Shown here in pieces: positions 43,050-52,939 of a stretch of DNA of 64,000 bases. Position numbers and translations under genes: made by a program. This DNA comes from Bacteroidota bacterium. Its GTDB lineage: Bacteria; Bacteroidota; Bacteroidia; Chitinophagales; Saprospiraceae. The DNA lies in assembly GCA_016124585.1 (NCBI GenBank), contig WGNL01000023.1, positions 206,108 through 270,107 of the forward strand. The letters are read 5' to 3'. Position 1 is the stretch's first letter; the number at the start of each line of letters is the position of its first letter. The notes beneath the pieces are model-generated. The model was not told the origin of the DNA. It did not search any database and saw nothing but the letters and a program-made list of their open reading frames with translations.

Positions 43050-43748
43050 TTATATCCAAGCGGGCCATTCACCAAGATTAGGTAACGGTGCCGATACCTC
43101 CAATCGTTCTCCCGTTTTTGGGTGGTCAAAAACAAGGCGATTGGAATGCAGATGTATCATTGAAATATCAGATTTTATGGGTTTCCCGCCGTATTTATCA
43201 TCGCCAAGCACCGGGCAACCAATGGCAGACAGCTGCACCCTGATTTGATGGTAGCGTCCAGTGAGCAGCTCAATTTCCGCAAGGCATTTATCTCCTTTTT
43301 TTTGCAAAATCTTGTAGCGGAGTCGGCATTCTTGCGAAGCTTTGGTATGTGGGTTGACCACGATAGCTCGCTTCTGTAAGGCATCTTTTTTTAGCCAATG
43401 CACCAGCTCACCCTCTTCAGCCGATGGACATTTTTCCAGAATAGCCAGATAAAATTTACCGACTGTCCTTGCCTCAAACTGCGCAGCCAACGACTTTACA
43501 GTGGCTGGAGTTTTCGCAATCAGAAGCACTCCGCTCACCGCCCGGTCAAGGCGATGCGTCAGCCCAACTACGAGTTGTTTTTTCCAAGGAAAAGTCTTTC
43601 TGAAATATTCAGCCACTTCCCGTTCCACGCTTGGGTTGCGAAACTTGTCTTTGTCAGACTGTAAGCCAGAAGGTTTGTTGATAGCAAGGAAATAATTGTC
43701 TTCGAAAAGGATTGGTAGCATAAGTATTATTGAAGCACAAAAAAACAT
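43050..43748 (-). CDS. RluA-family RNA pseudouridine synthase
   Basis: ILFEDNYFLAINKPSGLQSD, VGLTHRLDRAVSGVLLIAKT, LLTGRYHQIRVQLSAIGCPVLGDDKYGG. Confidence 0.95.
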   Translation of the reverse strand: MFFCASIILMLPILFEDNYFLAINKPSGLQSDKDKFRNPSVEREVAEYFRKTFPWKKQLVVGLTHRLDRAVSGVLLIAKTPATVKSLAAQFEARTVGKFYLAILEKCPSAEEGELVHWLKKDALQKRAIVVNPHTKASQECRLRYKILQKKGDKCLAEIELLTGRYHQIRVQLSAIGCPVLGDDKYGGKPIKSDISMIHLHSNRLVFDHPKTGERLEVSAPLPNLGEWPAWI

Positions 43749-43754
43749 TCCGTA

Positions 43755-45263
43755 TTACTGCGCCCTGAACCACTGTTCGCAGTATGCTTGCACGCTATTT
43801 TCGAGCAGTTGCTTATAGTTAGAGGCAGTTTTGAAATTCTCAAAAGCATCCTGCCGTTCCTTGCGGATTCGCTTATAGACTTCAGGATGGGCTTTTTTGA
43901 AAACTTCAAAACTGAAAACGGCCTTTTCTTTTAAAGGTGGTGCGGCTTGCTTATTAGTTGGTGTAAAAAGATCAGCCTCCTCCCCTACCCTACTCATTCG
44001 GCTAGCTTGGTTAGCAGTTTTTTTCTGGATGGAAAATGCAGGTTCCATCGTTTTCCCAATGGATTTCTCCTCCTCCAGCAATTTTCGGAAATCGGCAGCG
44101 GTGATGTTTTTTGCACGTTCGCGATTGGCGCGTTCGTCGTCTTTTAAGCTTTTTTTTCTTGAAACCACCTGCTCGAGCAACTGGGCATAGAGATTGGGCT
44201 CTTCGAATCGGCGATTCGTCACCCAAGTAGCATAGGCTTTTACTTTTTCTTTTGCCCCTTTCACAACGGTCTTTTTTTCAAAAAAAGCGAGCATGTACAA
44301 AACGAAAAAGTCCTCGTAACCAGCTAATTCGCTTCCTTTAACAATTGGCAACACTTCATCCAGCGCGAAAACCATGCTAACACCATACTCAGTCAAGGTA
44401 TTGAAGGCGCGACGTTGTGCCTCTGTGAGCGACTCAATGCGCGATTGTAGGTCGTTGGTAGGCTTTGCCGTCCTCTTTTTTACATTCTCAACCGGTACTT
44501 CATCTGTTGAAGCAGATTCTGGGTTAAAATCGGTTTTTTCATTGATGATGATTCGTAGGTCCGTGATATTCCGGCCTTTTTTGATGAAATCATAGTCAAC
44601 GCGCAAATGTGTTTTTTCGTTGATTTCCTCTCTCGCCACATCCAATACCTTCCGCCGGAAATTGCGGAAATCAGGGTATTTATCTGAAATACCGAGGCGC
44701 GATTTAAACTCTTTGATGCTGGCTGCGAAAACATTGCGCCCATGACGGATATTCTCAAAGTAATATGCCTTACACATCTGATAAATACGGATGCTAAATC
44801 CACTCTTCATCTTAGCCACCTCTAGGAATTCAAATCTGGTGAAGCGTTCCTTAAGACCCAGCAAAAATGGTTTCATCTGTGGTGAAAATCCAAATTCAAC
44901 GCAAAGAACACCATGCTCATCGTACTTCGGAACGGCACCTGCCACCCAATTAATATGGCCACGAAGACGGTGTCCATCCACGGTAAAATCTGTGGGAAAG
45001 GTGATTTTTTTATCTGTAATACTATCAAGTAGATCGTCGAGACGCTCGTAAAAAGAGCCATGTTTCTTAGTTTCATCCGATTTTAGAATGTACTCTATTT
45101 CGGAAACAGGTACAAGATAGGTCTCAAAATCGCTGTCCTCTGGACGCAGCAAAGTAGCCATGTACAAGATGAGCTTCTGTTCGCGGGGTGTCAGTTTATA
45201 TCTCGCATGCTGAATAAACTGGTTGGCAATTGCCGCTACCTTTTTTGTCTTTTCTATTTGCAT
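43755..45263 (-). CDS. Plasmid-type replication initiator (Rep_3 superfamily-like)
   Basis: ANQFIQHARYKLTPREQKLILYMATLL, YLVPVSEIEYIL, FTRFEFLEVAKMKSGFSIRIYQMCKAY, FKSRLGISDKYPDFRNFRRKVLDVAREEINEKT. Confidence 0.88.
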   Translation of the reverse strand: MQIEKTKKVAAIANQFIQHARYKLTPREQKLILYMATLLRPEDSDFETYLVPVSEIEYILKSDETKKHGSFYERLDDLLDSITDKKITFPTDFTVDGHRLRGHINWVAGAVPKYDEHGVLCVEFGFSPQMKPFLLGLKERFTRFEFLEVAKMKSGFSIRIYQMCKAYYFENIRHGRNVFAASIKEFKSRLGISDKYPDFRNFRRKVLDVAREEINEKTHLRVDYDFIKKGRNITDLRIIINEKTDFNPESASTDEVPVENVKKRTAKPTNDLQSRIESLTEAQRRAFNTLTEYGVSMVFALDEVLPIVKGSELAGYEDFFVLYMLAFFEKKTVVKGAKEKVKAYATWVTNRRFEEPNLYAQLLEQVVSRKKSLKDDERANRERAKNITAADFRKLLEEEKSIGKTMEPAFSIQKKTANQASRMSRVGEEADLFTPTNKQAAPPLKEKAVFSFEVFKKAHPEVYKRIRKERQDAFENFKTASNYKQLLENSVQAYCEQWFRAQ

Positions 45264-45300
45264 CAAAGGATGGATTTGGCAGCAAAGTATTTCCTCGCGT

Positions 45301-45968
45301 GTACACATCAAGGTGTTGGGGTACACTTTTTTTCAACATTTCCCACATGGGGTACACGGCAACGAAAAAAAAACCTCATCCCATCAAAAAACCTACCCAC
45401 AGTGCGTACACAGGAGGTGCGCTTTAGTAAATTTCATGTGCAGTTTTATGAGAATATGCTAAGAAAAGAGACTGAAAACCAATCCACAGCAGGAACACAC
45501 CAAAACACCTGCAAATACAGGGCTTCCCAAACAAGGTACACATAACTGAAACATTCAAAATAAAATATCGTAAAAGAACGCCCACTTCAAGTACACACTT
45601 GCCCACTTGGGGTACACATTAATTCCATGAATTTCGCAAAAAATTGATTTACAAGCACTTATCATTGCGATTAGGACTAGTTTCGAAATGAACTTTTCCC
45701 ACAAAAAGGACACGCCGGCTTGATTTAAAACAGGTTTGTGCTAAAAGCTTTTCTTTGATACCAACATGGGCTTAGAATGGCCCACATCAAGTACACGACC
45801 CACTAATTGTACTCATTTTCCCCACGTTTCTTACGCGATACTCCCCCATTAAGTGCACTTTATCCCCACCCTGTGGACGCGGGATACCCACTCAATTGAC
45901 ACTTATCACCCACAACACGTAGCAATACAGCCCCAATTATGGACACGCATTCTCCACATCAAGTACAC
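45301..45968. repeat. Iteron array, consensus CCCAC-N6-GTACAC
   Basis: Sites at 45342, 45396, 45581, 45602, 45781 and an 8-unit run with exact 22-bp spacing starting at 45799, 45821, 45843, 45865, 45887, 45909, 45931, 45953. Confidence 0.9.
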
Positions 45969-46164
45969 GTCAAATATTTCAATAGCCTGATAATCAACAA
46001 CTTAGGGCAGACCAAACTAATAAAACTTAAATAGCAAATAAAAACTATAAATTTATAATAAGTAAGAAATTTAGTGTTTTATTTTTAAATCTAGCTGTTT
46101 TATGTCTTTAAAACTCAGGGGATACAGTTCTGAATCTAATAGCTTGACGTGTACCTGATGTGGA
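45960..46164. other. Candidate replication origin core: AT-rich stretch between inverted iterons
   Basis: TCCACATCAAGTACACGTCAA at 45953 versus inverted TTGACGTGTACCTGATGTGGA at 46144-46164; ~46018-46105 very AT-rich. Confidence 0.65.
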
Positions 46165-46300
46165 TGGATTTTTCAGTAAGACTTTAATCAGATGTGGTTT
46201 AATTCCTCGGGGTTCTACCCGAAAGAAACTGGAATCAGATTTGATGCTAGGGGCATTGCCCCTAGGGTAGTATATTATTGTAAAATCAAACTTACATTCG

Positions 46301-46340
46301 TTAAATAACGAATTCGTTATTTATTTTTATCGTTATTTGC
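46301..46340. promoter_or_regulatory. Phased octad array upstream of parA
   Basis: CGTTAAAT/AACGAATT/CGTTATTT/ATTTTTAT/CGTTATTT in exact 8-bp register. Confidence 0.8.
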
Positions 46341-46391
46341 TTTTCAGTTTATTGCCTAAGCCTTAGCTTTGCACCCAAGGCACTAATTTTG

Positions 46392-46415
46392 CGTTAAATC
46401 GTTATTTCGTTAAAT
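46392..46415. promoter_or_regulatory. Triple octad immediately upstream of parA
   Basis: CGTTAAAT-CGTTATTT-CGTTAAAT, ending ~22 nt before the ATG; TAGCTTTG -7-like element at 46366. Confidence 0.8.
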
Positions 46416-46437
46416 ATAGAATGTTAAAACTAAAAAC

Positions 46438-47076
46438 ATGGCACTGATAATTGGAGTTGTTTCGCAAAAGGGAGGAGTAGGGAAATCGACTGTTGCGCGA
46501 CTTGTTGCGTGCAATTACGCGGCTAACGAATGGGTAGTAAAAATTGCTGACATGGACTTGTCGCAAGGGACAGCGACAAATTGGAATCGGCGGCGGCTCC
46601 AAAACGAAATAACACCAAAAGTTGCTGTTGAACAGTTTGTCAACGTATCTGACGCTATCAAGCATGGCGATCATTACGATCTGATTGTTTTTGACGGGGC
46701 GCCCCACTCTACCAGCAAGACACTTGATATTGCTAAGGCTAGTAACCTCGTGGTATTGCCAACGGGTGTTTCTCTTGACGACTTAGAACCTACAATTAAA
46801 CTTGCTCACGAACTGAAAAAGAATGGCATCAATGCCAGCAAAATATCAATCGCACTATCTCGAATTGGAAATAGCGAAGCTGAATTGACAGAGGGTATGG
46901 AGTATGTGAGAGCTAGTGGTTATCACCTACTCGATGGCGTGCTTTTTGAGAAAACAGCAGTTCGACGTGCCAGTGATGAGGGTAAATGCGCCACTGAGAC
47001 TGGGTTCAAGACCATAAATGAGAAGGCGGATGTGCTATTGCAAGCTATTGTGAATCGAGTGGAATTGGTTAAATGA
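46438..47076 (+). CDS. parA: ParA-family partition ATPase
   Basis: IIGVVSQKGGVGKSTVARLVACNYA deviant Walker A; DLIVFDGAPHSTSKTLDIA; ends with plasmid ParA-like C-term. Confidence 0.93.
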   Translation: MALIIGVVSQKGGVGKSTVARLVACNYAANEWVVKIADMDLSQGTATNWNRRRLQNEITPKVAVEQFVNVSDAIKHGDHYDLIVFDGAPHSTSKTLDIAKASNLVVLPTGVSLDDLEPTIKLAHELKKNGINASKISIALSRIGNSEAELTEGMEYVRASGYHLLDGVLFEKTAVRRASDEGKCATETGFKTINEKADVLLQAIVNRVELVK

Positions 47077-47110
47077 TTCACGAGGATATAACTAATTAAG
47101 TTACATTTTT

Positions 47111-47134
47111 CGTTAAATCATTATTTCGTTATTA
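47111..47134. promoter_or_regulatory. Octad array
   Basis: CGTTAAAT-CATTATTT-CGTTATTA. Confidence 0.7.
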
Positions 47135-47209
47135 AATTCCAGCAAATCATAAATCATTTTCCATCTTTTGGCTTTCCATCATTGAATTTTGATAATAAAA
47201 GCTAGAATT

Positions 47210-47233
47210 CGTTAAAGCGTTATTTCGTTACTT
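47210..47233. promoter_or_regulatory. Octad array upstream of small RHH-like gene
   Basis: CGTTAAAG-CGTTATTT-CGTTACTT. Confidence 0.75.
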
Positions 47234-47289
47234 TGTGCAGTGTTTACCCAAGAGAATCACCAATATTATCATCAATTAGAAAAGCGATC

Positions 47290-47514
47290 ATGGCAAAAAT
47301 TAGCAAACCAACCACCAACCGAAAAGGGGCACCACCACCAGAATTCGAAGCACCTACCAACCTGACCCGCAGTTCCGACCAAGATTTACGACCACTTAAT
47401 TTCAAAGTGCCAGCAGCATTCAAGCGTGAATTCAAGGCTTATGCCAACGAAATGGATATGAGCATGGTCAGTTTACTCATGACCTGTTTTGAGCAGTATA
47501 AAAATTCAAGATAA
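47290..47514 (+). CDS. Small ribbon-helix-helix-like protein, candidate centromere-binding partner of ParA
   Basis: 74 aa; basic disordered N-term then LRPLNFKVPAAFKREFKAYANEMDMSMVSLLMTCFEQYKNSR (beta-strand, helix, helix); directly downstream of parA. Confidence 0.7.
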   Translation: MAKISKPTTNRKGAPPPEFEAPTNLTRSSDQDLRPLNFKVPAAFKREFKAYANEMDMSMVSLLMTCFEQYKNSR

Positions 47515-47544
47515 CGAAATCGTTATTTAAAGAAAGAACGATTT
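47513..47544. promoter_or_regulatory. Octad array overlapping the RHH gene stop
   Basis: AACGAAAT-CGTTATTT-(8)-AACGATTT. Confidence 0.65.
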
Positions 47545-47806
47545 CTGTTTTTCTTTAAATCTTTAGGAATTTTGATAGACTTCTGCTAAAACGATAAAAA
47601 ATTCAAACAGCACAAAGTGGCCTGTTTGCCTTCCAGTCGTTTTCCGGCGATATGCTGGCGTGAATGAATGCAACCTAGCCCGAAGTGGGCTTTGGTTCTA
47701 TACTGCGCTTATATTTGCTTAAAATCAGTCAAATCTTTTTTAGAAATCAATAGAATTTCTGAAGAAAGATTTAACGATTTCTTTTTTTCTTTCTTTCGTT
47801 ATCAAA

Positions 47807-47858
47807 TTATCTTTTCTGGTATCTTTAAAATTAAATTAATTTCGTTAATTCGTCATCT
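47807..47858. promoter_or_regulatory. Degenerate octads upstream of VOC gene
   Basis: CGTTATCA at 47807, CGTTAATT-CGTCATCT at 47843-47858. Confidence 0.55.
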
Positions 47859-47871
47859 TTTTAAATATTTT

Positions 47872-48273
47872 ATGATGATAAAAAATTCGAACCAATTCCT
47901 CGGTCTCCGCACAGTCATCTACGTGAACTCCGATCTACAAGCTGCCCGTGATTGGTATGCCGATATATTGGGCTTCCCGCCTTATTTCGATGAACCGTTT
48001 TACGTCGGTTTTAACGTGGGCGGTTACGAGTTGGGCATCATGCCGGCAGAAGGTGTGAATCAGCCAGGAGGGAGAGGCGTGCTTGCTTATTGGGGCGTTG
48101 AAAACGCTGAAACCTCCTTCGAACGCCTCATTACCAAAGGAGCTACCGAGAGGGAGCCAGTCACGGAAGTAGGCGGGGGCATTAAAGTGGCTACTGTGAT
48201 TGATCCGTTTGGAAATGTGCTGGGTATAATAGAGAATCCACATTTTATGCTTGGAAGTCAAGCTGCTGAATGA
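47872..48273 (+). CDS. VOC/glyoxalase family protein
   Basis: LRTVIYVNSDLQAARDWYADILGFPPYFDEPFYVGFNVGGYELGI...VIDPFGNVLGIIENP. Confidence 0.92.
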   Translation: MMIKNSNQFLGLRTVIYVNSDLQAARDWYADILGFPPYFDEPFYVGFNVGGYELGIMPAEGVNQPGGRGVLAYWGVENAETSFERLITKGATEREPVTEVGGGIKVATVIDPFGNVLGIIENPHFMLGSQAAE

Positions 48274-48285
48274 TATCAGCACCTA

Positions 48286-48317
48286 CGTTAATTAACGATT
48301 TCGTTATTTCGTATTCT
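48286..48317. promoter_or_regulatory. Octad array
   Basis: CGTTAATT-AACGATTT-CGTTATTT-CGTATTCT in register. Confidence 0.75.
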
Positions 48318-48512
48318 TGGCTAACTTTTGATGCCCACCTTTTTTTATCAGCGACCAACCAAATCTCTATACCATGACATCGCTTAAGAAACTGTAAAAC
48401 ACAAATTCAGCAATCAAAAGAAAATCAAACAGGGCTTGCATACGTGATTGGGAAGCGCAATCTGCGTGCGATTAAAATGATACTTATTTTGCAACAAAAT
48501 CTAGCTAATATT

Positions 48513-48537
48513 GGCTCTAAACTAGAGCCCTTTTTTC
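48513..48537 (+). terminator. Rho-independent terminator
   Basis: GGCTCTA-AAC-TAGAGCC-CTTTTTTC. Confidence 0.7.
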
Positions 48538-48682
48538 ATCATTGAAAATCTCACTGTTAAGTATTCTATTATATAATTTTTTGATTGGATTAAAAGTATG
48601 AGCACAAAATGAGCAGTACAAATGCTAGTCAAGTGGTAGAAATAAAATAAATGCCACTTTCCTGATGTAGAATTTAATAATT

Positions 48683-48698
48683 CGTTATTTCGTTAATC
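48683..48698. promoter_or_regulatory. Octad pair just upstream of WG-repeat gene
   Basis: CGTTATTT-CGTTAATC, 16 nt before ATG 48715. Confidence 0.7.
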
Positions 48699-48714
48699 GT
48701 TCAAGAGTGTAGCT

Positions 48715-51522
48715 ATGAAAACTCTAAAAATTATCACGTTGTTGACTTTGGTACTCAGCCCTAGTGCTGTATTTGCTCAAAAAAGTTTAAAGCTCTTTTG
48801 GCGGAAAGTCCTTCCTGATATTTGGGTTAAGTACGAATCATTGAAGCCTATAAATGAAAAGCATGCAAAGGTCTTAAAAGAAGAAAGATGGGGAGTAATT
48901 GATAATCGAGGCAGAGTTATAGTCCCAGTTCAGTACAAGCGACTCGATATTTACCCTTACTGGACGGATGCAAACCCATTGTATTACCGGGTCTCTTTTG
49001 ATGGCAAGCTGTTTGGGTTGTTAAATTCAAAAGGTAAATTGATTGTGCCGGCAGTGTACAGCCAATTAGAGTTGTTGGAAAATGAGCACATTAGGGCGTG
49101 CAATTACAATGGAAAATGTCGTGAGTTTAATTCAAAAGGAAAGGATATTACCCCGCCTGTTCTCATAAAGTACCAATGCCAAGTGCAACAAAAGAACGGA
49201 TTGACGTCGGCTTCACCTGACGGTAAGTTGTATGGATTAACAGATGAACAAGGAAATTGGCTGTTAAAACCCCAGTTTAGCTCATTGATATGTAGCGAAT
49301 GTGGAAGTTATTGGGTTGTTTTTGATGAAACAGGCGGATACCGAGTTGTTTTGCCAAAAAATCCAAGCTGGAAAAGCCCGGTTTTTGAAGGTGTTGGATG
49401 TTTTGGAGATGGGTTTTCAGGCACTTTTGGCAATGATGAATGGAAACTATTTGATAAGATGGGCAACGAATTGAGTCCAATGCCCTCAGACTATTACCAC
49501 CCATCCCTCGAATATCCTTTCTCGAATGCAAGTCTGGCAACCTTTAAAGAAAAAAATTTAAAAGGGCTAATTTCAAGTAGGGGAGATGTAGTTCTGCCAC
49601 CTATTTACGGGGACATTTCGACTACTCGCCTTGCAGGCAGTCGGTTTTATGTCACTCGACAGACAGATGGGAGGGAAGGTGTTTTTCATTCGGGCAAATG
49701 GTTGCTTCCATGTAAATACGACCGGGTTACTTATAGCTTTACTTATCCTCTGTTCGCCGCCATGTTAGGAGATTCAACATGGATAGTGGATACATTAGGT
49801 AGAACAGTAACCATTTTGCCCTTCAAAGTACAAAATCCTCAAAGCAAATATTTTGTTGATGACATTGGTAAAAAGTACTTCTGGTCTCCTGATTATGGCT
49901 TATCCAAACTCCCATCCAACGTCGAATCTATAACGAGTAGCAACCCTAACTTAGTCATTAAGTCAACGGTAGGGCTTTTCAGCATTCTAGATGCTAGAGG
50001 ACGTGAAATCCTTCAAGATTTTGATGATATTAGGATGTCCTGGTCAAGTGAGGGTGCTCCATACTATTACTTGCTCTGTAAAAAAGGGTTGTGGGGCATG
50101 GTTGACCACACGCTCCAATATGGATTTGAGCCACAGTATGATGAACTACGTTCAATAAGTGATGGCAATTTCATCGCAAAAAAAAGACAACTGTATGGAC
50201 TCATTGATTATAAAGGAAATCAGGTTTTGGAGTTTAAGTACAAGGATTCCAACGCCCTAGCTGATAATTGGAACCTTAAAAAAAATAGCGCACAGGGATT
50301 GTTTCATTCAGTACCCCTACATCAAGCAAAGGGTTTTATGTTTGATAAAATTCACAAGATAAAATCTCCTTTTCTTGTTAAGAAAACAGAAGGTCTTTAT
50401 GGCCTTTATGACAGTAGGGGACGGTTGTTAAACAATGAGACCTTTTCAAAGCCTCCATATTTCTTCGATGAAGGGGGTTTCAGTTTCGGGGAGGAAAGCC
50501 AGTTAGCATTCTATTCATCCAATGGAAAGAGGCTAACAGCACATGCATTTTCAGACATTCAGTACGTGGATAGCTACCATCGAGGAAACTTTTTCATCCA
50601 AGCTATGCTAGCTAATGGTGAATATATCTATTTGAACAAAGCTGGCAAAGAAATGCTTAGAACCGATGAATTGATAATCAGAAGCTTAGGGTCTTTTATT
50701 TCTAGGAAAGGTGACTATTGGCAGTTTATTGATGGAAATGGCAATCAATTATCAAATCTTCAATTGCGTTCTATATTGAATTTTTCTTCAAATGATGGTT
50801 GGGGTAGATACTATGTAGGCCAAGATAGCTTAGGCAAATGGCATGTCGTTGATTTGAGCGGTACATCAATCCACCAATTTGATGCGGAAAAAATAGGGTA
50901 CATCGGAGAAAACTATAATATCAACCATCTTTATTTCACAAGAAATGGCAAGCGCTACATGCTCAAGGCTCCCGGATGGATAGAAAAAGAACTCAAATAC
51001 GACAATGGTGAGGAGGGTTTAGTAAAACTAAATGGGAAATATGGCTTTGTAGATTATGCTGGAAAAGAACTAATCCCATGTTCGTACGATGCAATCGTAA
51101 AGCCAGGCGAAATTGGATGTGAATCATCATGCTTGCTTGCGGCCAAGAAGGGAGACCTGTTTGATGTCTTTAATCGCTATACAGGTGAGAGGCTACTACA
51201 TGACGTTTATGCTATTAGAAAATCGGAATCACCTACCTTCGTTTTTTATCGTAAGAATGGCTTTTTGGGTATTTTAAATCCCGAATCAGGAGAAGTCAGA
51301 GAGGCAATTTATAGCAATCTTTACTTTCAACCAGTACATAATGTTATTTTTTATGTCATAAGCTATCAAGAAGGTAAGGGCCTTCTCAACACGTATATGG
51401 AACAAGTCTTGCAACCTGAGTATTCGTCCATACAACCTGATAAAAACGGAAATCTTATTTTGAAAAACATTGACGGGAAACAATGGGTTTTTGATGGGAA
51501 AACAATGATGACTGATAAATAA
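48715..51522 (+). CDS. Secreted WG-repeat protein
   Basis: Signal peptide; repeated WGVIDNRGRVIVPVQYKRL / YGLIDYKGNQVLEFKY / YGFVDYAGKELIPCSYDAI. Confidence 0.9.
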   Translation: MKTLKIITLLTLVLSPSAVFAQKSLKLFWRKVLPDIWVKYESLKPINEKHAKVLKEERWGVIDNRGRVIVPVQYKRLDIYPYWTDANPLYYRVSFDGKLFGLLNSKGKLIVPAVYSQLELLENEHIRACNYNGKCREFNSKGKDITPPVLIKYQCQVQQKNGLTSASPDGKLYGLTDEQGNWLLKPQFSSLICSECGSYWVVFDETGGYRVVLPKNPSWKSPVFEGVGCFGDGFSGTFGNDEWKLFDKMGNELSPMPSDYYHPSLEYPFSNASLATFKEKNLKGLISSRGDVVLPPIYGDISTTRLAGSRFYVTRQTDGREGVFHSGKWLLPCKYDRVTYSFTYPLFAAMLGDSTWIVDTLGRTVTILPFKVQNPQSKYFVDDIGKKYFWSPDYGLSKLPSNVESITSSNPNLVIKSTVGLFSILDARGREILQDFDDIRMSWSSEGAPYYYLLCKKGLWGMVDHTLQYGFEPQYDELRSISDGNFIAKKRQLYGLIDYKGNQVLEFKYKDSNALADNWNLKKNSAQGLFHSVPLHQAKGFMFDKIHKIKSPFLVKKTEGLYGLYDSRGRLLNNETFSKPPYFFDEGGFSFGEESQLAFYSSNGKRLTAHAFSDIQYVDSYHRGNFFIQAMLANGEYIYLNKAGKEMLRTDELIIRSLGSFISRKGDYWQFIDGNGNQLSNLQLRSILNFSSNDGWGRYYVGQDSLGKWHVVDLSGTSIHQFDAEKIGYIGENYNINHLYFTRNGKRYMLKAPGWIEKELKYDNGEEGLVKLNGKYGFVDYAGKELIPCSYDAIVKPGEIGCESSCLLAAKKGDLFDVFNRYTGERLLHDVYAIRKSESPTFVFYRKNGFLGILNPESGEVREAIYSNLYFQPVHNVIFYVISYQEGKGLLNTYMEQVLQPEYSSIQPDKNGNLILKNIDGKQWVFDGKTMMTDK

Positions 51523-51596
51523 TCCGTTTGAACTTATCATAATGATAAGAAGGTCCAAATTGCAACCTGGAAAAGTTGTTAAAGAAAAAAAGATTT

Positions 51597-51604
51597 CGTT
51601 AAAT
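51597..51604. promoter_or_regulatory. Single octad
   Basis: CGTTAAAT between WG-repeat and GH18 genes. Confidence 0.4.
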
Positions 51605-52798
51605 CTTTACGAACGAAATGGTTGATACAATATATTTAGAAGTAAGTCTCAAAGCATAAACCCCCGCTGACCATCCCTCCAAATCTATTATAGTGCCTGA
51701 TTCTATTTCTCCTGACCACTTTATTCTTCCTTGAAAATCAATCACCTGTACTTGACAGCTTGTCTTTGGTAATTTTTCAATATTCAAAAAATCCCTAGCT
51801 GGATTAGGATAGAGTAGGGGAGCCACATTAACTGCTGCTACCTCATTGCCTGCGCTCACCGGATTTACAACCTCATCAATCGCCTTCAACAACGAAAGGC
51901 TGGCAAATGGCCCACTTGCATCCTGCCCCAGTTCCCAAATCATCACTCCACCAGTTTCAGCTTGTGCTAACTGCGTCTTCGCTTTGATGGTTGGAATGCC
52001 ATTGTAATACAATTGGCCAACTTGGTCTAATTGGGCGTTAAAGGGGTTGAAGGACACGATTTCACCAAAATACTTGGCATCCACGGGCGTAGTAGAAAAA
52101 TCATAACCATAAAATGGGACACCAAGTGTTTGCCTATCACCTGGCAGCCCTTGGTTGTTCCAGTAGGTTAGACAACTCACAGCCCAGGAATATGGGGAGT
52201 GCTGGCCAGGGTTGCTAGGATCCCAAGGCCCAGTCAGGTCGTAGATCATGAGGTTGACCCAGTCGAAGGCGGCAAGGGCTGGAGCAGTGATTTGCGGGTA
52301 GCGGTAGCCGCCGGGCAAGGCAGCGGTCAGTGGCAAGCCTTCGGCATCTAGGGCAGCACTCAGCGCCAACACGAACGGGCTGTACAAATCGTTCACATGC
52401 TGCCATTCGAGGTCAATGTCCACACCATCAAACCCATTCGCTTGCACGTATGCTAATATTTTCCCAACAAACTCATCTAGGTGGGCTGGCTGCATCCAAT
52501 AGTCCCAATTGGTTTGCCATTCGGGCGTTAGGTAACCACCTGCGAGCGATACGAAAACTTCAACATCATGCTGGTGTGCCACGTCAATGACCTGCGCAAA
52601 ATCAGCACCATCGAAACTAAAATTTCCATTGATATCGGGATTGGCGAAAGCAAGATTGACATGCGTGAGTCGATCCCATTCGATTTGGGTAGGTGCTGTG
52701 TCGAAATTCCAGTAGGCCAGGTAGCCAACTACTTTGAAGTCTTGGGAAAAGGCTAAAGTTGTGACGAATAAAAAAGCAGCGAATAAAGTTGTTTTCAT
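51599..52798 (-). CDS. GH18 chitinase-like protein with T9SS type A C-terminus (start at MKTTLFAAF)
   Basis: KVVGYLAYWNFD, FDGVDIDLEW (DxxDxDxE), LYPNPARDFLNIEKLP. Confidence 0.92.
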   Translation of the reverse strand: MKTTLFAAFLFVTTLAFSQDFKVVGYLAYWNFDTAPTQIEWDRLTHVNLAFANPDINGNFSFDGADFAQVIDVAHQHDVEVFVSLAGGYLTPEWQTNWDYWMQPAHLDEFVGKILAYVQANGFDGVDIDLEWQHVNDLYSPFVLALSAALDAEGLPLTAALPGGYRYPQITAPALAAFDWVNLMIYDLTGPWDPSNPGQHSPYSWAVSCLTYWNNQGLPGDRQTLGVPFYGYDFSTTPVDAKYFGEIVSFNPFNAQLDQVGQLYYNGIPTIKAKTQLAQAETGGVMIWELGQDASGPFASLSLLKAIDEVVNPVSAGNEVAAVNVAPLLYPNPARDFLNIEKLPKTSCQVQVIDFQGRIKWSGEIESGTIIDLEGWSAGVYALRLTSKYIVSTISFVKI

Positions 52799-52923
52799 GG
52801 ACAGGCCAGTTTTACTGATGAAACAAAGGCTAAATGTAGCGCAAAGGCATACCATTTCCAGCATCTCATTGTTTCACCAGCAAATTTGCTGCCTTTATTC
52901 TTTGCATAAAGAATTATATAAAA

Positions 52924-52939
52924 CGTTATTTCGTTAATT
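52924..52939. promoter_or_regulatory. Octad pair overlapping the MFS stop codon
   Basis: CGTTATTT-CGTTAATT; minus strand supplies ...ELTK* of the MFS gene. Confidence 0.6.

Follow-up and report, generated by a model that had tools for sequence, protein, structure and literature searches.

A putative RHH-type partition locus on a Rep3 replicon of a Saprospiraceae bacterium, with candidate operator and centromere octads in the gaps around parA

The window analysed here, a 64,000-nt stretch of contig WGNL01000023.1 of a Bacteroidota bacterium (Saprospiraceae), possesses a set of plasmid-type replication and partition genes. They encode a Rep3-family replication initiator (Pfam Rep3_N, 1.5e-26; Rep3_C, 1.2e-19), the genome encoding six such proteins, the window copy included; a 212-aa deviant-Walker ATPase of the ParA type (Pfam CbiA, 4.7e-12; phrog_164 ParA-like, 1.5e-31), whose ATPase domain begins at residue 4 with no N-terminal HTH extension; and a 74-aa protein with a predicted ribbon-helix-helix (RHH) fold. 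Around and downstream of the latter two genes lie arrays of the 8-bp word CGTTAWWT, hereafter octads. The features, in window coordinates, are as follows.

43755..45326, minus strand: Rep3-family replication initiator
45581..46165, unstranded: thinly spread CAAGTACAC-type repeats (4 detected, of which one is inverted) in the rep-parA interval, putatively iterons of Rep3
46299..46338, plus strand: octad array I, the CGTTAAATAACG palindrome and two octads in register; the block is retained in most congeners
46364..46371, plus strand: TAGCTTTG, resembling a Bacteroidota -7 element (TAnnTTTG) and separating array I from array II, putatively of a promoter
46392..46415, plus strand: octad array II, a perfect tandem of three octads, 22 bp 5' of the parA start
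46438..47076, plus strand: parA
47111..47134, plus strand: octad array within the parA-RHH gap
47210..47233, plus strand: octad array 5' of the RHH gene
47290..47514, plus strand: gene of the 74-aa RHH protein, putative centromere-binding protein and repressor
47512..47528, unstranded: two divergent octads that overlap the stop codon of the RHH gene
47769..47776, minus strand: lone octad 5' of the VOC gene
47843..47858, plus strand: octad and degenerate octad preceding the VOC gene
48286..48317, plus strand: octad array immediately 3' of the VOC stop codon
48683..48698, plus strand: octad pair preceding the WG-repeat gene
51597..51604, plus strand: lone octad in a convergent gap, including the GH18 stop codon
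52924..52939, plus strand: perfect octad pair over the MFS stop codon, encoding the last residues L-T-K-stop

A separate DnaA and one HTH-ParB are encoded on other contigs of the genome; together with the six Rep3 genes, this indicates that the window locus probably belongs to a secondary replicon, 270 kb or more in size. The window contig is not circular (no end overlap was found for contig C43). It carries no tRNA genes in 270 kb, nor do two congener contigs in about 240 kb, versus five in 400 kb of control contigs, and its GC content is 0.476 versus 0.44-0.454. A core-gene motif scan was too insensitive to tell the replicon from the chromosome (2 matches in 400 kb of control contigs), and the cumulative GC skew around the locus displayed no clear switch.

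The small protein had been called RHH-like in the first-pass annotation, and its predicted structure agrees. The AlphaFold2 model contains two helices with high pLDDT (residues 42-54 and 59-73) and a disordered N-terminal tail; the absence of a beta strand from a single-chain model is expected, because the ribbon is intermolecular. The best Foldseek matches are CopG, PutA, ParG (1p94) and Arc, and the top of the list is near-uniformly RHH, with E-values that are weak, as is usual for 40 residues. The strand reads PLNFKV, with N37 and K39 invariant across the genus. Pfam, NCBIfam and PDB sequence searches with the protein gave no useful match, and a search of IMG/VR retrieved two distant relatives only. 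The protein does match the profile phrog_6024 (1.1e-15, residues 1-72), a family annotated as "unknown function", to which the homologues from Saprospira grandis and Tunicatimonas also belong; the data presented here suggest a function of phrog_6024 in partition.

Octads are present at every place where they had been reported at first reading, with minor coordinate corrections. The array placed at 46301 is real and truly starts at 46299, whereas in the block 47513-47544 octads occupy 47512-47528 and the remainder is something else. The pairs at 47843 and 48683 have degenerate second octads, and besides the single octad at 51597 there is another at 47769. The statement that octads fill every intergenic gap near parA is true downstream of parA; on the Rep3 side there are none, the CAAGTACAC-type repeats of that interval being unrelated to octads. 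The array at 52924-52939, first linked to regulation of the MFS gene, covers the stop codon of that gene (54251 to 52926, minus strand) and not its promoter. In all, three genes of the window (RHH, GH18 and MFS) have their stop codons within octads, and at the last two (51597-51604 and 52924-52939) the octads serve also as coding sequence.

Exact tandem octads are confined to this locus. The exact pair CGTTAWWTCGTTAWWT, that is (CGTTAWWT)2, has three matches in the window versus none expected from dinucleotide shuffles; genome-wide it has three matches in 6.63 Mb, all at the parA-RHH locus, where four of its five one-mismatch matches in the whole 6.63-Mb genome also lie. The single word CGTTAWWT occurs at 19 sites in 6.6 kb, about 47 times the density of the remaining ~263 kb of the contig, which hold 16. 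The genome-wide pair count, which had been proposed as a check for local enrichment, thus excludes a uniform density.

The octads keep an 8-bp register. In an unbiased test of all 5-mers over 20 kb, CGTTA came first for recurrence at lags of 8, 16 and 24 (12 times), and it recurred at no other lag from 5 to 40. With the octad centre set between CG and TT, which keeps inverted octads in the same register, 105 of 114 distances between sites at most 60 bp apart in the window and ten congener loci are multiples of 8. Overlap by itself favours one class, that of the 12-bp palindrome CGTTAWWTAACG; when this class is left out, multiples of 8 account for 60/66 same-strand and 13/16 opposite-strand distances.

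Octads also avoid coding DNA. From -300 to +10 kb of parA in the window and the congener loci, 175 sites fall in 22.9 kb outside coding bodies versus 19 in 65.2 kb inside them, a 26-fold avoidance on crude gene calls. On long contigs the in-register pairs end about 7-9 kb downstream of parA, and beyond Rep3 there are just background singles. The 33 distal arrays comprise 13 in convergent gaps, 14 in co-directional and 3 in divergent ones, and 3 in called ORFs; many of them touch a stop codon.

Within the genus, octads and the RHH protein are inherited together. Of 13 sampled congeneric genomes, 11 encode a single orthologue of the protein; the sampled other genera of the family encode none. 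Exact tandem octad pairs occur in the same 11 genomes, with about 3-7 octads per kb around each orthologue, and the genomes G002 and G008 are without ParA, RHH and tandem octads alike. A few exact pairs on further congener contigs (G001:C109, G009:C48 and G009:C102) are possibly continuations of the octad domain past assembly breaks. Of the 10 congener loci with a parA gene, 9 have Rep3 in synteny with it, and most loci share the syntenic set of pseudouridine synthase, Rep3, parA and rhh, some contigs being too short for all four. The pseudouridine synthase gene (43050-43748 in the window) adjoins the Rep3 gene across the genus and is unusual in a plasmid backbone.

An alignment of 11 loci shows that the two octad blocks upstream of parA are conserved and bracket a TAnnnTTG element, which resembles the Bacteroidota -7 box and presumably marks a promoter. 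Such an arrangement, with arrays on both sides of a conserved -7-like element, is that of autoregulated RHH par operons and favours the operator part of the original proposal. Elsewhere in the focal genus the lengths and texts of the arrays vary from gap to gap; the octad word and its 8-bp register are retained. Neighbouring genes differ between congeners, yet octads persist in whichever gaps exist.

The 55-kb plasmid NC_016936 of S. grandis provides an independent replicate. Its ParA (~60% identity) and RHH protein (39%) adjoin an initiator of its own, and 11 arrays of 5-9 octads, in which CTTTAWWT is mixed with CGTTAWWT, are distributed around the whole circle. All 11 lie in gaps, although gaps account for 18% of the plasmid, and all 85 distances between CTTTAWWT sites at most 60 bp apart are multiples of 8; of eight permuted control words, seven gave no in-register pairs and one gave 7. 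The same plasmid encodes the greater part of de novo purine synthesis, along with guaA/guaB, pyrF and a paa operon, and therefore looks like a chromid.

Homologous ParA-RHH pairs in cyanobacteria (Nostocales and others), Aeromonas, Halomonas and P. cerasi have octads of the CGTTAWWT/K type or CG[TC]TAWWT upstream of parA. In cyanobacteria the octads recur directly 3' of rhh and are not dispersed, staying at the par operon. Tunicatimonas has octads of the CTTTRAWW type. E. coli and Salmonella plasmids of ~45-47 kb carry distant ParA-RHH homologues with AT-only ATTATATA-type octads, lacking CG, upstream of parA. The ParA neighbour in Azotobacter salinestris is another RHH protein with 11-bp repeats and was left out of the count. 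Our search of a collection of open-access papers returned none naming such octads.

Several known systems resemble the one described here. Dimers of the RHH repressor MetJ stack every 8 bp on met boxes; unlike the octad system, MetJ is a metabolic repressor without a ParA. The enterococcal pairs RepB/RepC of pAD1 and PrgP/PrgO of pCF10 combine a ParA with a small protein acting on 8-bp iterons, TAGTARRR. Their octad differs and the sequence link is weak (the S. grandis RHH protein matches PrgO with an E-value of 0.014), and dispersal is not known for these plasmids. ParF-ParG of TP228 also consists of a ParA and a small RHH protein with a flexible N-terminus, and ParG is among the fold matches, although the PDB search detected no sequence relation to it; the organisation of the ParG site differs from octad arrays. 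The delta/omega system of pSM19035 likewise has a short ParA, a small RHH binder and contiguous short repeats in direct or inverted orientation. One omega dimer binds each 7-bp repeat, cooperatively with direct or inverted neighbours, and the repeats serve as parS and as operators of promoters alike, RHH par proteins being repressors of promoters (PMC9499535). Like the candidate sites here, the parS sites lie over par gene promoters and there are several per plasmid (PMC9499535). Unlike pSM19035, with its 7-bp WATCACW heptads, the present locus uses the 8-bp CGTTAWWT, and its arrays also occupy convergent gaps and stop codons, reaching 7-9 kb. Searches of Pfam and PDB profiles gave no omega match for the 74-aa protein.

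Taken together, the locus is in all probability an RHH-type (type Ib-like) ParABS system of a Rep3 replicon, with the octads acting as operator and dispersed centromere. The features of this type present at the locus are a short ParA, an adjacent small RHH protein with a disordered tail and repeats upstream of parA. That the octads are binding sites of the 74-aa protein, as first proposed, is well supported by comparison: the protein has a predicted RHH fold, it is inherited with the octads, and nearly the same octads accompany its homologues in other phyla.

The first-pass annotation had further linked the octads to regulation of the VOC, WG-repeat, GH18 and MFS genes, and a dedicated regulon, with the RHH protein mainly a transcription factor and the distal octads its operators, is the least improbable of the alternatives. 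RHH par proteins do repress promoters (PMC9499535), the start codons of VOC and WG have arrays ~20-30 bp 5' of them, and some congener arrays are 16-26 bp before starts. However, octads in congeners are independent of the genes downstream of them, the array of the MFS gene is at its 3' end, and the high share of convergent gaps, the few divergent ones and the many stop codons touched do not resemble operator placement; the S. grandis plasmid, too, has 3 of its 11 arrays in convergent gaps, close to the fraction of gap DNA that is convergent. Since the arrays are near par and mostly outside reading frames whatever their neighbours, they fit centromere sites rather than a regulon of the named genes, and we regard the latter as unlikely. 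Local effects on VOC and WG may nevertheless occur, given the position of these arrays relative to the start codons.

We find it harder still to believe that the distal arrays are functionless selfish or duplicated repeats, similar to MITEs, which spread from the par operator into gaps. Near-identical stretches are common to the S. grandis arrays, which therefore arose at least partly by copying. In the focal genus, however, it is the octad word and register that are retained between gaps and not the array text, and the coverage is limited to the parA side, over ~10 kb, and is kept across species. Least credible are sites of replication control (Rep3-bound iterons, or handcuffing or incompatibility sites): octads adjoin the Rep3 gene and short repeats are typical of such replicons, but a different repeat type occupies the rep-parA interval, octads accompany parA-rhh also where a plasmid has RepL or lacks a nearby Rep gene (Tunicatimonas, Halomonas), and the other five Rep3 genes of the genome are without CGTTAWWT arrays.

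For the operator and centromere reading we propose the following mechanism. Each RHH dimer would bind one CGTTAWWT octad, and adjacent dimers would stack at 8-bp intervals, whichever way the octads point. On arrays I and II the protein would act as repressor of parA-rhh and as core centromere, and by occupying some eight additional short arrays within 7-9 kb it would make the ParA-activating partition complex larger. RHH centromere proteins bind statically, whereas CTP-clamp HTH-ParBs spread over 15-20 kb (PMC13245405). Because an RHH protein cannot slide like the latter, the scattered arrays may act as "hard-wired spreading", making the replicon a multivalent cargo. The main weakness is that most distal arrays in the window have 1-3 octads, whereas full activation of ParA by omega needs at least four contiguous repeats (PMC9499535); the distal arrays may therefore be weak accessory sites. 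The S. grandis arrays, with 5-9 octads, reach that number. Against a dispersed role, octads confined to the par operon suffice for the cyanobacterial relatives.

The genome with the window contains five further Rep3 replicons (contigs C1, C15, C7, C3 and C2). Those on C15, C7 and C2 possess ParA-RHH pairs with words of their own, ACTTA, ACTGA and GCATA, at 8-bp spacing; C3 has no repeats of this kind, and C1, considered as a further octad-bearing replicon, was rejected, as its repeats run AAAGATTTTTACTTT at 11/22-bp spacing and are of a different, 11-bp type. Several orthogonal partition codes apparently coexist in one cell. Across the wider family, RHH strands with N-x-K/R pair with CG-containing octads, and those with N-x-S, V-x-T or F-x-N with CT or AT words. 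This pairing, exploratory in that it covers few independent lineages and some loci were found with a pattern including NFKV, suggests that residue 39 may read the G of the octad.

A broader view, to which we would give even chances, is that the locus represents a class of RHH-ParABS systems whose centromere extends over many gaps (7-9 kb here, the whole 55-kb plasmid in S. grandis). In such a class hard-wired sites would replace the sliding and spreading of CTP clamps, and coexisting replicons would stay distinct because the RHH strand of each reads a different 8-bp word (e.g., K39 and the G of CGTTA). Scattered RHH arrays would then offer a natural test of whether big replicons need a large partition complex, and of whether DNA can encode spreading. 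The locus also provides a likely function for phrog_6024, and the octad words with their RHH strands may help in decoding RHH specificity and plasmid incompatibility.
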